This document shows, one piece after another, positions 4,859 to 10,306 of a stretch of 38,861 nt of DNA. The position numbers and the translations under genes were made by a program. The first letter of the stretch is position 1. Each line of letters begins with the position of its first letter. The notes below the pieces were generated by a model. It was not told where the DNA came from. It saw only the letters and a program-made list of their open reading frames with translations, and made no database searches. Where the stretch lies: NCBI GenBank assembly GCA_020049415.1, contig JAIFKV010000207.1, positions 1 through 38,861 of the forward strand, in the 5' to 3' direction. This DNA comes from Betaproteobacteria bacterium (GTDB lineage Bacteria > Pseudomonadota > Gammaproteobacteria > Burkholderiales > Thiobacillaceae).

Positions 4859-5971
4859 CTAAGCCATTCTGGCCATTGCGACCGGTATGCGTTGGGCGCC
4901 GAAGTGTCGCTCGAAGTGGCTGAAACGTCCGGCGATCGCGTGGCCGCAATGCGGGCAGTGGCCGCTGTCGTCGAGATGGTAAGCGGGGATTTCGTACCAG
5001 TCGCGCACGATCAGGGCGGCTTTGCAGTTTGGGCAAGACGTGGTGCCGCCGTCGCGGTCATGCACGTTGCCGGTATAGACGTAGTGCAAACCGGCATCGA
5101 GGGCGATTTTGCGAGCGCGATGCAGAGTTGCCGGCGGCGTCGGCGGCAGGTTGTCCATTTTCCAGTCGGGATGGAAGGCGGTGAAGTGCAGGGGTACGTC
5201 GGGGCCAAGTTCGCGCGCGATCCATTCCACCATGGCATGAATTTCCGCATCGCTGTCGTTCAGGGTGGGAATCAGCAGGGTAGTGATCTCGAACCAGGTG
5301 GTGGTTTCGCGTTTCAGATAAATCAGCGAGTCGAGCACCGGTTGCAACTGGCCGGCGCAATATTTGACGTAAAAGTCGTTGCTGAAGCCCTTCAGGTCGA
5401 CATTGGCGGCATCCATCGCGGCGTAGAACTCGCGCATCGGTTCCTGATGAATGAAGCCGGCGGTGACGGCGACCGTCTGAATGCCGAGTTGGTGGCAAGC
5501 GGCTGCGGTGTCCAGGGCGTACTCGGCGAAGATGACCGGGTCGTTGTAGGTGAAGGCGACGCTCTTGCTGCCAAGTTGTTGTGCCACTTGGGCAATTTTC
5601 TCCGGACTGGCGGATTCCATCAGCCGGTCCATGTCTTTTGATTTGGAAATGTCCCAGTTCTGACAGAATTTGCACGCCAGATTGCAGCCGGCGGTGCCGA
5701 AAGACAGCACGGAACTGCCTGGATAGAAGTGGTTGAGCGGTTTTTTCTCGATCGGATCGACGCAAAAGCCGGAACTGCGGCCATACGTGGTGAGGACCAT
5801 TTCGCCATCTTGCATCTTGCGCACGAAGCATGCGCCGCGTTGGCCTTCGTGCAGTTTGCAGTCACGCGGGCAGAGGTCGCATTGAATGCGGCCATCGTCG
5901 AGCCGATGCCACCAGCGGGCGGGAAAATGACTTTCAGGCAGGGTGTGCCCCTGGTTGATGCCGATGTTCAT
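4859..5971 (-). CDS. amrS: AmmeMemoRadiSam system radical SAM enzyme AmrS
   Basis: This 370-residue radical SAM enzyme belongs to the AmmeMemoRadiSam system. It shows the radical SAM motif C96-x3-C100-x2-C103 in TAGCNLACKFCQNW, which binds the catalytic [4Fe-4S] cluster. Preceding it is an N-terminal Cys block (C31, C34, C38, C48), and two C-terminal CxxC pairs (SCPNC and HCPHC) look like a zinc ribbon. I chose the ATG at 5971 because AAGGAGGA precedes it by seven bases and the family begins near here; the frame stays open to 6022. It overlaps the end of amrA by 38 bases, so translation is likely coupled. Its substrate is not established to my knowledge; clustering with MEMO1- and AMMECR1-type proteins suggests one shared pathway. 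Confidence 0.92.
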   Translation of the reverse strand: MNIGINQGHTLPESHFPARWWHRLDDGRIQCDLCPRDCKLHEGQRGACFVRKMQDGEMVLTTYGRSSGFCVDPIEKKPLNHFYPGSSVLSFGTAGCNLACKFCQNWDISKSKDMDRLMESASPEKIAQVAQQLGSKSVAFTYNDPVIFAEYALDTAAACHQLGIQTVAVTAGFIHQEPMREFYAAMDAANVDLKGFSNDFYVKYCAGQLQPVLDSLIYLKRETTTWFEITTLLIPTLNDSDAEIHAMVEWIARELGPDVPLHFTAFHPDWKMDNLPPTPPATLHRARKIALDAGLHYVYTGNVHDRDGGTTSCPNCKAALIVRDWYEIPAYHLDDSGHCPHCGHAIAGRFSHFERHFGAQRIPVAMARMA

Positions 5972-6542
5972 GATTTTCCTCCTTGAATTTTTCGACCCGG
6001 TAACGCGACAGGCGCAGATCATTTGCCCAGAAGTCCGCCGTCAAGCCGGCTTTTTGTTTTAAATGCGCCATGAATTGACGCGGTTCCGGCAGTTGTTCCC
6101 AGACTTGCGGCAAAAAGGTGGCGCGATGTCGGCCGTATTCCAGAATGACGCCATCAATGTTGGGGCGGAGTTGAGACAAGGCGTCCGCCTCGTTGCCAAA
6201 AATCATCGGCTCGGCGGAGGACAGAATCGAGACTTCAATCTGTGTGGCGGCGAGTTCTTTCAGATTCAGCGGCGGGAAGCGGGGATCCTGGAATGCGGCC
6301 GCGCGTGCATTGGCTTGCAAATCCGCCAGCAGGGGGCGTTGCGCCGACAAACTGCCGATGCAACCGCGCAACTGGCTTTGCCCGTTTTCGTCGCGCTGGG
6401 TCAGGGTGACGAAGACCGCGCCGGGCTCATCCAGCCAATCCGGATGCGGTAAAGCGATGCAGGGTTCGCCGAATTCGGCGGCGAGGGCGTTACGCGCCAG
6501 CGCGATCAGGAGTCGGCCTTGTTCAGTGCTGTGTGTTTTCAT
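5934..6542 (-). CDS. amrA: AmmeMemoRadiSam system protein A (AMMECR1 domain)
   Basis: A 202-residue AMMECR1-type protein. The family signature LRGCIGSL is present (about residues 58-65), and the fold continues through DPRFPPL and the VEVSILS-type strand (here IEVSILSSAEPM). The C-terminal LPQVWEQLP block is also typical. Human AMMECR1 is a disease-linked protein of uncertain biochemistry; the bacterial role is likewise not established. GGAG precedes the ATG. The gene overlaps amrB by 20 bases and amrS by 38, so the three form a tight operon read from 7332 to 4859. Its extreme C-terminus (HEHRHQPGAHPA) is dictated by the overlap with amrS and is probably not conserved. Confidence 0.92.
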   Translation of the reverse strand: MKTHSTEQGRLLIALARNALAAEFGEPCIALPHPDWLDEPGAVFVTLTQRDENGQSQLRGCIGSLSAQRPLLADLQANARAAAFQDPRFPPLNLKELAATQIEVSILSSAEPMIFGNEADALSQLRPNIDGVILEYGRHRATFLPQVWEQLPEPRQFMAHLKQKAGLTADFWANDLRLSRYRVEKFKEENHEHRHQPGAHPA

Positions 6543-7332
6543 GTTGAGGCTCCACTAAAGCAAACGCGCCATAACCGACGACCCGGCTACGATCTCCGGC
6601 GGTATCACCGGAATTGCGCATATCGAGCAAGTGCGGCACCAGGCCGCGTCGTTTTGCCGCCAGCATCAAGCCATTGATCGGATTCGCGCCGCAGGCTTGT
6701 TCGCCCACCAGATGGCTGTTCAGATTGAGGATGGCGTTGGCGGTGGCGGCGTCGACCTGTCTGGCTTCGGTGTAGGGCAGGTAATGCGAGAGATCGGAAC
6801 TGACCACGATCAAGGTTTCATCGCCGCCCCAAAGTCGATCCAGCACTTCCGCCACCGCTTCCGCCGATGCGCCGCCAACCGCCAGTGGAACCAGCGAAAA
6901 ATCGGCTAGAACGCTTTGCAGGAAGGGCAGATGCACCTCCAGCGAATGCTCTTCGGCATGGGCGGCGGCGGAGATGCTGACTTGCGCCAAATCAGTGATG
7001 GCCTCTATGCCGGCTTGATCGAGCGGCACCTCGCCCAACGGCGTCGCGAAGGCGGAAACCGTTGGCAAGGCCAGTCCCTCTACCCAAACCCGATGCACCG
7101 GCCCCAGTAATACGACGCGGCGGATAATTGTGCGCAAGGGCTTCAACAGGGCATAGGCGGAGGCGGCGATGGGGCCGGAATAGATGTAACCGGCGTGCGG
7201 CACAATCAACGCCTTCGGTCTAAATGGCGCGGCGTGTGCGTGATCAAAACATTCCTTCAATATCCCGCGCAAGACTTCGGGTTGGGCGGGATAAAACATG
7301 CCGGCAACGGCGGCGGGTCTGACCTTCATCAT
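6523..7332 (-). CDS. amrB: AmmeMemoRadiSam system protein B (MEMO1 family)
   Basis: A 269-residue MEMO1-family protein, structurally related to class III extradiol dioxygenases. Visible motifs are VPHAGYIYSGP (about residues 44-54), LLGPVHRVW (74-82), HSLEVHLPFLQ (about 128-138) and VVSSDLSHYLPY (about 177-188). These carry the His residues that form the metal-site pocket in the family. GGGAGAG precedes two tandem ATG codons; I take the first. It is the first gene of the amrB-amrA-amrS operon and is divergent from ispD, with 66 bases between the two starts, so that gap must hold both promoters. Metal identity and reaction cannot be read from the sequence. Confidence 0.92.
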   Translation of the reverse strand: MMKVRPAAVAGMFYPAQPEVLRGILKECFDHAHAAPFRPKALIVPHAGYIYSGPIAASAYALLKPLRTIIRRVVLLGPVHRVWVEGLALPTVSAFATPLGEVPLDQAGIEAITDLAQVSISAAAHAEEHSLEVHLPFLQSVLADFSLVPLAVGGASAEAVAEVLDRLWGGDETLIVVSSDLSHYLPYTEARQVDAATANAILNLNSHLVGEQACGANPINGLMLAAKRRGLVPHLLDMRNSGDTAGDRSRVVGYGAFALVEPQHENTQH

Positions 7333-9314: not shown

Positions 9315-9353
9315 TGATAGTATTATCCGCTACCCGACAATTTTGGTCGGGTA
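9315..9353 (+). promoter_or_regulatory. Extended -10 promoter with IscR type 1-like operator
   Basis: A perfect 8-bp inverted repeat, TACCCGAC (9331-9338) and GTCGGGTA (9346-9353), is separated by AATTTTG. Compared with the E. coli IscR type 1 consensus as I recall it (25 positions, half-sites ATASYYGACT and AGTCRRSTAT around RWWWY), the stretch 9330-9354 agrees at 22 of 25. It starts immediately downstream of a possible extended -10 element, TGATAGTAT (9315-9323), so a bound repressor would cover the transcription start. The ATG of the CDGSH Fe-S protein is 20 bases further on. Control of an Fe-S protein gene by an Fe-S-sensing Rrf2 regulator is biologically sensible; no iscR gene is in the window. 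Confidence 0.6.
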
Positions 9354-9372
9354 TTAACCAGAGGATTAAAAA

Positions 9373-9678: not shown

Positions 9679-9708
9679 TTGTCCGCGCCCTTGCGGGTGG
9701 CGGATAAT
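9679..9708 (+). promoter_or_regulatory. Candidate sigma-70 promoter for the rnf operon
   Basis: TTGTCC (9679-9684) and GATAAT (9703-9708) are separated by 18 bases and lie about 23 bases before the rnfA ATG. GCGGGT (9693-9698) and ACCCGC (9720-9725) form an inverted repeat across the -10 and leader, which might be an operator; this last point is speculative. No good Shine-Dalgarno sequence precedes rnfA. Confidence 0.45.
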
Positions 9709-9730: not shown

Positions 9731-10306
9731 ATGGAAAACTACCTTCTTCTCCTCATCGGCACGGTGTTCGTGAACAACATCGTCTTGTCGAAAATTCTTG
9801 GCCTGTGCCCGTTCATGGGGGTTTCGCGCAAGCTGGAAACCGCCATCAGCATGGGGGCGGCGACGACTTTCGTGCTCACCCTGGCCTCCGGCGCGAGCTA
9901 TTTGATCGACACTTATCTACTTGGCCAGGAACTGTCCTATTTGCGCACCTTGTCATTCATCGTGGTGATCGCCGGCATCGTCGGGTTTACCGAGATGTTT
10001 ATCAAGAAAACCTCGCCGGTGCTGTTTCGCGTGCTGGGCATTTACCTGCCGCTGATTACCACCAATTGCGCGGTGCTCGGCATTCCGCTGTTGAATGTGC
10101 GTGAACAACACAATTTCATCGAATCCCTGTTTTACGGTCTCGGCGGCGCGCTCGGCTTCAGTCTGGTTCTGGTGTTGTTCGCCGCGATGCGCGAGCGCCT
10201 GGAAGCCGCCGATGCACCCACGCCGTTCAAAGGCGTCAGTATCGCCATGATTACCGCCGGCCTGATGAGTTTGGCGTTCATGGGTTTCGCCGGATTGATC
10301 CGCTAG
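9731..10306 (+). CDS. rnfA: Rnf electron transport complex subunit A
   Basis: A 191-residue integral membrane protein of the Rnf (Rsx) complex, which couples ferredoxin:NAD+ electron transfer to ion movement or, as Rsx in E. coli, keeps SoxR reduced. It has about six hydrophobic segments. The signatures [18 protein letters not shown] (residues 16-33) and [17 protein letters not shown] (about 109-125) carry the Cys residues that, in RnfA/E and NqrD/E structures, bind a [2Fe-2S] cluster at the subunit interface. It opens the operon rnfA-B-C-D-G-E-nth, and its TAG stop overlaps the GTG start of rnfB by one base. Confidence 0.95.

Follow-up and report, generated by a model that had tools for sequence, protein, structure and literature searches.

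A predicted IscR type 1 operator upstream of a tandem-CDGSH protein gene in a Thiobacillaceae genome

IscR recognizes type 1 sites in its [2Fe-2S] form but not as the apoprotein, and in the holo form it represses isc, as described in sections of PMC3899308 and PMC4169559; in Klebsiella the type 1 box also serves activation (portions of PMC4169559). The E. coli type 1 consensus is given in PMC3899308 (excerpted text) as ATASYYGACTRWWWYAGTCRRSTAT. In the studied regulons of Caulobacter (PMC11475020), Klebsiella (PMC4169559) and Pseudomonas (PMC3899308), the sections consulted describe IscR as controlling iron and stress genes, and in Pseudomonas and Caulobacter it also controls its own operon (PMC3899308 and PMC11475020, in part); the Caulobacter IscR motifs, as far as that excerpt gives them, differ from the type 1 palindrome described below. 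Type 6 CISD proteins are defined by two PhiCxCxx(S/T)xxxPPhiCDG(S/T/A)H motifs about 20 residues apart (excerpt of PMC3174974), and the sections consulted of PMC3174974 and PMC5859297, which concern their structure and phylogeny, name no regulator for any bacterial gene of this type. The cellular role of bacterial tandem-CDGSH (NEET-type) proteins is likewise not stated in the portions of the literature consulted.

CDGSH is not mentioned in the main text of the Caulobacter IscR study (PMC11475020), the Klebsiella (PMC4169559) and Pseudomonas (PMC3899308) studies are not among the papers naming both CDGSH and IscR, the terms for an IscR regulon were not found in the main text of PMC5343134, and the consulted part of PMC11327457 held nothing bearing on IscR control of grx genes. 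According to the original prediction, bacterial double-CDGSH proteins were not known to have been described as part of the Fe-S homeostasis regulon, and none of the literature matches listed, among which subscription journals were thinly covered and RegPrecise lay outside the scope, placed a bacterial CDGSH gene under IscR. None of them dealt with an IscR regulon of the wider Thiobacillus family, for which the present analysis gives an outline. A conserved IscR operator would provide a regulatory handle on such a protein, indicating the condition for its synthesis (Fe-S shortage) and the partners made alongside it.

We analysed a window of 38,861 nucleotides, the whole stretch of DNA presented above. 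The 25-mer CTACCCGACAATTTTGGTCGGGTAT at 9330-9354 is in our judgement very probably (about 0.86) an IscR type 1 operator, through which holo-IscR would repress the adjacent CDGSH gene and Fe-S shortage would derepress it. Our analysis shows that the motif is there and exceeds chance, that the genome encodes a complete IscR, that iscR shares the motif and that the site is conserved before the orthologous gene in part of the family. Like the iscR type 1 operators of E. coli and P. aeruginosa, which overlap the promoter, the site is a 25-bp partial palindrome with a YYGAC-A/T-rich centre-GTCRR core, and it may likewise overlap its putative promoter; it differs from them in its near-perfect CCCGAC/GTCGGG arms, in its CDGSH target and, in this genus, in its position just past the -10.

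The CDGSH gene and its candidate operator

Table 1. Features of the CDGSH locus in window coordinates
Feature	Position	Strand	Basis
IscR type 1 operator (predicted)	9330..9354	.	22/25 against the E. coli consensus; matrix; relatives
Left arm TACCCGAC	9331..9338	.	Inverted-repeat search
Right arm GTCGGGTA	9346..9353	.	Inverted-repeat search
-10-like hexamer TATTAT	9321..9326	+	Sequence; similar hexamer in close relatives
AGGA, likely ribosome binding site	9362..9365	+	Read from sequence; 7 nt before ATG
Tandem-CDGSH [2Fe-2S] protein (type 6 CISD), 79 aa	9373..9612	+	PF09360; family profile
Promoter-like TTGTCC-18-GATAAT before rsxA	9679..9708	+	Promoter scan
rsxA (RnfA/RsxA), next gene	9731..10306	+	NF003481, 304.2 bits against a cut-off of 240

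The gene beside the operator had been predicted to encode a double-CDGSH protein, and its product indeed contains two PF09360 stretches (78.3 bits, E=5.3e-22). The family profile of the protein matches 3tbn_A over 2-78 (E=1.3e-32) and also 6avj_A (CISD3). The two motifs, WCSCGRSKNQPFCDGSH and LCTCKHSANPPYCDGAH, lie 19 residues apart and agree with the type 6 definition. A glutamate synthase FMN-binding domain would make the protein type 5; PF09360 was the sole match in the 79 aa at E up to 0.001, and the protein is therefore assigned to type 6. It shares with the type 6 proteins of Magnetospirillum (MmCISD) and human (CISD3/MiNT) a short length and a pair of CDGSH motifs spaced by about 20 residues. 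Across 28 aligned rows neither motif varies in its Cys and His ligands, and [2Fe-2S] binding is predicted at both.

The arms of the operator form a perfect 8-bp inverted repeat with a 7-nt spacer, and the 25-mer agrees with the E. coli consensus at 22 of 25 positions; both statements of the original prediction were reproduced. Under a zero-order model with the composition of the window, the expected number of 25-mers scoring at least 22 is 0.0013 for the window and 0.12 for the whole genome of 3.7 Mb, and the next best matches elsewhere in the window reach 18/25. A weight matrix trained on 15 iscR sites and six other sites, with the CDGSH sites excluded, ranked 9330 at the top of the window with 25.0 bits, against 13.2 bits for the runner-up and a maximum of 17.4 bits in 30 shuffled windows. 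Among 17 distinct CDGSH operators, 15 scored above 17.4 bits and two fell below (L051, 16.8; L040, 15.6). The exact pattern CYCGAC-N7-GTCGRG has a single genomic occurrence (9333) and the reversed pattern has two, and CCCGAC-N7-GTCGGG with two mismatches gave 226 matches, against 258 for the control. Since the short core is outnumbered by its controls, the core alone is uninformative, and only the full 25-mer separates from the control.

Three bases separate the -10-like TATTAT from the operator, and 18 nt separate the operator from the ATG, so that the 20 bases given originally for this distance had to be corrected. The promoter was read by eye, as was a TAATAT/TAAGAT-like hexamer at the same position in close relatives; a simple promoter scan by consensus found no -35/-10 pair at 9321-9326. 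Transcription is expected to start at about 9333. The earlier description of an extended -10 element applies to an alternative hexamer, TAGTAT at 9318-9323, which has TGA before it, and does not apply to TATTAT, which keeps the register of the relatives and has no preceding TGn.

IscR and the conservation of the site

The genome (G000, 84% complete) encodes two Rrf2 proteins. The absence of IscR had been named beforehand as a finding that would speak against the operator; one of the two passes the IscR model TIGR02010 (211 bits against a cut-off of 207.55), and under a second IscR model, NF008110, it scores 181.6 against a cut-off of 275. Its gene lies between neighbors that we take to be cysE and iscS. 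The protein keeps C92, C98, C104 and H107 as well as the DNA-reading residues S40, Y41, E43, Q44 and R59, the roles of these nine key residues being taken from sections of PMC3899308 and PMC11475020.

A scan for the same palindrome before isc genes, suggested in the original prediction, found the same motif class at the iscR promoter of this genome, which carries ATAGTTGACCAAATTAATCGGGATT, and, by eye and with no score, a related palindrome before cysE. The iscR site is close to site B of P. aeruginosa iscR, ATAGTTGACCTAATTACTCGGATAA (PMC3899308, excerpted text). Of 32 family genomes chosen for the search, 28 yielded an IscR, and it was not found in G026 (58% complete), G028 (84%), G029 (77%) or G002 (93%). 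All 28 iscR upstream regions have a best 25-mer scoring 20-23; this is the kept ATAGTTGAC-type site in 26 of them, and L138 and L143 have a higher-scoring neighbor upstream of that site. G026, which has a CDGSH operator and in which IscR was not found, is a point against IscR as the reader of the site.

CDGSH relatives were found in 102 of 117 family genomes. We took 106 upstream regions of up to 150 nt from 101 genomes, positioned by match coordinates, and scored 105 of them; G012, whose upstream region was too short, and two weak partial matches of G001 were left out of the count. Rule-chosen start codons, used for other alignments, may err (in 76 rows, six lacked the motif and nine the start). 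The best 25-mer scored at least 20 in 19 regions, 19 in one, 18 in two and 17 or less in 83 (17-19 in five, 16 or less in 81). About 0.05 such sites are expected by chance across the 105 regions, as calculated from the per-site probability, and shuffling reached 20 in 1 of 1,800 cases for the family set (90 regions, 18 of them reaching 20) and in 2 of 1,560 for the named set (78 regions). Over 110 listed loci (523,566 bases), all 25-mers scoring at least 20 are found in front of CDGSH, with a single exception at L024:79. Four of the 20 site-bearing loci repeat genomes already counted. Of the listed loci from named genomes, 78 of 80 were scored; at least four reach 20, these four being contigs that we judged to come from genomes of the family set, and below 20 the matches listed include one Vibrio locus scoring 19 and one scoring 18.

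The site-bearing regions (at least 20/25) come from five genera: 12 of 21 regions in g1, the genus of the window, 1 of 1 in g5, 3 of 4 in g6, 2 of 5 in g7 and 1 of 1 in g11. No site at this level was found in g3 (0/1), g4 (0/2), g8 (0/4), g9 (0/8), g10 (0/50), which we judged to include Thiobacillus thioparus (DSM 505), or g12 (0/8), and 86 of the 105 family regions stay below 20/25. At the order level a CDGSH match was found in 55 of 200 genomes, and 53 of 54 regions outside the family stay below 20/25; the sole exception, L307, scores 20, and its genus-mate L310 scores 14. Since the site is missing from most regions of the family and the order, IscR control of the CDGSH gene is not general. 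The operator is conserved before orthologous genes within a limited range.

The placement of the operator varies between genera. In g1 it closely follows the -10-like hexamer. In g5, g6 and g11 its palindrome extends into this hexamer, in the forms TCGGGTATAATC (L036, L038, L042), TCAGGTATAATC (L039) and TCGGGTAAAATC (L040), and the g7 operator precedes GATAAT or CATAAT. The occurrence of one operator at one gene in three geometries argues that selection has acted on regulation and not on the shape of the local DNA or RNA.

Other predicted sites

We scanned the genome of the window and four relatives with the full 25-mer, allowing up to three mismatches, and obtained 40 sites, 8 in this genome and 32 in the relatives; the reversed pattern gave none in all five. 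Five sites precede CDGSH genes, one in each genome by choice, since carrying a CDGSH site was a condition for selecting the relatives. Five precede an ankyrin-repeat gene (5/5 genomes; L232 1501-1525 here, L247, L245, L252 and L267 in the relatives), 16-20 nt before the ATG like the CDGSH site, and four precede sodB (4/5 genomes). Three lie before clpX in the clpP-clpX gap (3/5 genomes; L236 1501-1525, L249 and L255), which suggests a clpX-proximal promoter under IscR. ClpX and ClpP pass their profile cut-offs; SodB, at 315.7 bits, stays below its own of 348. In the relatives, three sites precede a presumably glutaredoxin-like gene (MDIQKLIHEQVTSHPVVLYMKGTPQFPQCGYS.., or MDVQAIIHQQ.. in G030).

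Two sites precede a DUF255-like gene and one precedes iscR; the iscR of this genome is not on the list because its site has four mismatches. Eight precede other or unnamed genes, among them the gene for a 62-aa DUF2892-like protein in this genome and two DsrC/TusE-like genes in G030. Four are terminator-like sites (AAAGCCGAC..GTCGGCTTT) before a cobyrinate-synthase-like gene, and five lie inside one conserved ORF. The names DUF255, DUF2892, DsrC/TusE and cobyrinate synthase are our presumptive assignments. The ORF-internal and terminator-like sites, nine together, look accidental, and about a quarter of the 40 may not be operators. With the motif class found before iscR, before other genes and in 19 of 105 CDGSH upstream regions, the predicted place of the CDGSH protein in the Fe-S regulon is supported.

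Two of these groups have features of their own. At L235 (1495-1531) a longer palindrome, GCCGCCATACC..GGTATGGCGGC, is centered on the site before the DUF255-like gene, which may therefore act as a terminator or hairpin, either in place of an IscR site or in addition to one. The ORF-internal match scores 22-23/25 and is kept in 5/5 genomes (L233 1501-1525; L270 in G011, L253 in G017, L242 in G030, L251 in G031); it may reflect a conserved protein motif or an intragenic site.

Competing readings and the proposed mechanism

The second Rrf2 protein, whose gene adjoins one that we take to be SCO1, or an NsrR-like regulator could in principle read the palindrome instead of IscR. All 19 genomes examined, which were chosen mostly for carrying the site, hold at least one non-IscR Rrf2 protein, and co-occurrence therefore does not single out IscR. 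In an ungapped comparison the second regulator has A40, A43 and K44 where IscR has S40, E43 and Q44, and according to an excerpt of PMC3899308 an E43A IscR binds type 1 sites without a cluster. A relative of this regulator was read in 15 of the 19 genomes (16 loci taken, L299 falling outside the search pattern), and its own 15 upstream regions peak at a type 1 score of 16/25, carrying by eye short ACTC..GAGT or GACA..TGTC repeats beside the start codon, whereas the motif is present at iscR's own promoter in the 28 regions read. We rejected the second Rrf2 protein as the reader because the motif is missing from the 15 of its promoters that were read, and we consider control by this or another Rrf2-type regulator improbable. 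Chance resemblance can be practically dismissed: although the genome-wide expectation for such 25-mers is about 0.12, this one sits at a putative promoter, is kept in five genera and belongs to a pattern with 40 sites in five genomes against none for its reversal. It is also unlikely, if less so than a different Rrf2 reader, that the IscR operator mainly serves the downstream rsx genes with CDGSH as the first gene of their operon. Within the genus, nine loci (L018-L022, L024, L029, L031, L037), including this genome with 118 nt, have rsxA some 48-118 nt behind CDGSH, and no terminator-like site was found between the two genes here. However, the promoter-like TTGTCC-18-GATAAT intervenes and is seen by eye in four relatives as well (L019, L021, L022, L024), which weakens the operon reading; rsxA probably does not depend on the operator; operator-bearing L036 (g11), L039 (g6) and L042 (g5) have an extra ORF between CDGSH and rsxA; L029 has a close rsxA and no site of at least 20/25; and no rsxA occurs in the stretches of L025-L028, L030, L032 and L033, some of which end at contig ends.

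The palindrome might also act as RNA, without any repressor: an 8-bp stem-loop formed at the 5' terminus of the CDGSH leader would stabilize the transcript or adjust its translation. The leader stem here folds with -12.8 kcal/mol (z -2.85 against shuffles; z -3.25 in L024), and a sister group within the genus has a G+C-rich short-loop palindrome at this place that varies, judged by eye, through wobble-like and paired changes. On the other hand, in g5, g6, g7 and g11 the palindrome precedes or runs into the -10-like hexamer and would not be transcribed from there; the arms of L034 and L035 break without repair; L037 (z 0.64) and sister-group L032 (z -0.51) have no folding excess; the A/T-rich center matches IscR sites; and the same motif precedes iscR, sodB and others. 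Judged by eye from the rows listed, the palindrome is not consistently transcribed across relatives with its pairing kept by paired changes. An RNA hairpin was rejected as the common function on account of the four genera with the palindrome upstream of or in the -10-like hexamer, and has a small likelihood for this site, similar to that of another Rrf2 regulator; an RNA stem-loop is possible in g1.

The sister-group palindromes occur in L025 (G023), L027 (G029), L030 (G021), L032 (G024), and L033 and L048 (G025), with spacers of 3-5 nt, as in CCCGCC-AATC-GGCGGG. They may be leader hairpins that replaced the IscR site.

With an IscR type 1 operator as the preferred reading, a [2Fe-2S]-IscR dimer, encoded by iscR on another contig, would bind 9330-9354 when Fe-S clusters are plentiful. 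The bound site would cover the expected transcription start just past the -10, and CDGSH transcription would be blocked. Repression is expected because the site lies over the transcript start in g1 or in the -35/-10 space in g5, g6 and g11. When the cluster supply drops, through iron shortage or oxidants, IscR would lose its cluster and release type 1 DNA, and the CDGSH protein would then be made together with the Isc machinery, sodB, the ankyrin-repeat gene and clpX, and in relatives with the glutaredoxin-like gene. We infer the binding, the repression (from the position of the site) and the signal. Since a tandem [2Fe-2S] protein would be induced with sodB and, in relatives, the glutaredoxin-like gene, it may store, carry or repair Fe-S clusters under stress. 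A more tentative extension, doubtful on present grounds, sees in the CDGSH protein a factor dedicated to Fe-S stress and in its control by IscR the outcome of repeated selection, with three placements of the operator relative to the -10 and its loss or remodelling elsewhere; the protein would hold or pass labile [2Fe-2S] clusters, including that of IscR, and would thereby close a feedback loop.

Two further observations concern neighboring genes. In L036, L039, L042, L044 and L047, a conserved gene of about 125-130 aa (MPHALLADLVLIVHLGFILWVV..), probably encoding a membrane protein and presumably DUF2784-like, lies between CDGSH and rsxA. In the window, positions 4859-7332 hold three overlapping genes on the minus strand, which we take to encode an AmmeMemoRadiSam radical SAM protein, AMMECR1 and Memo.
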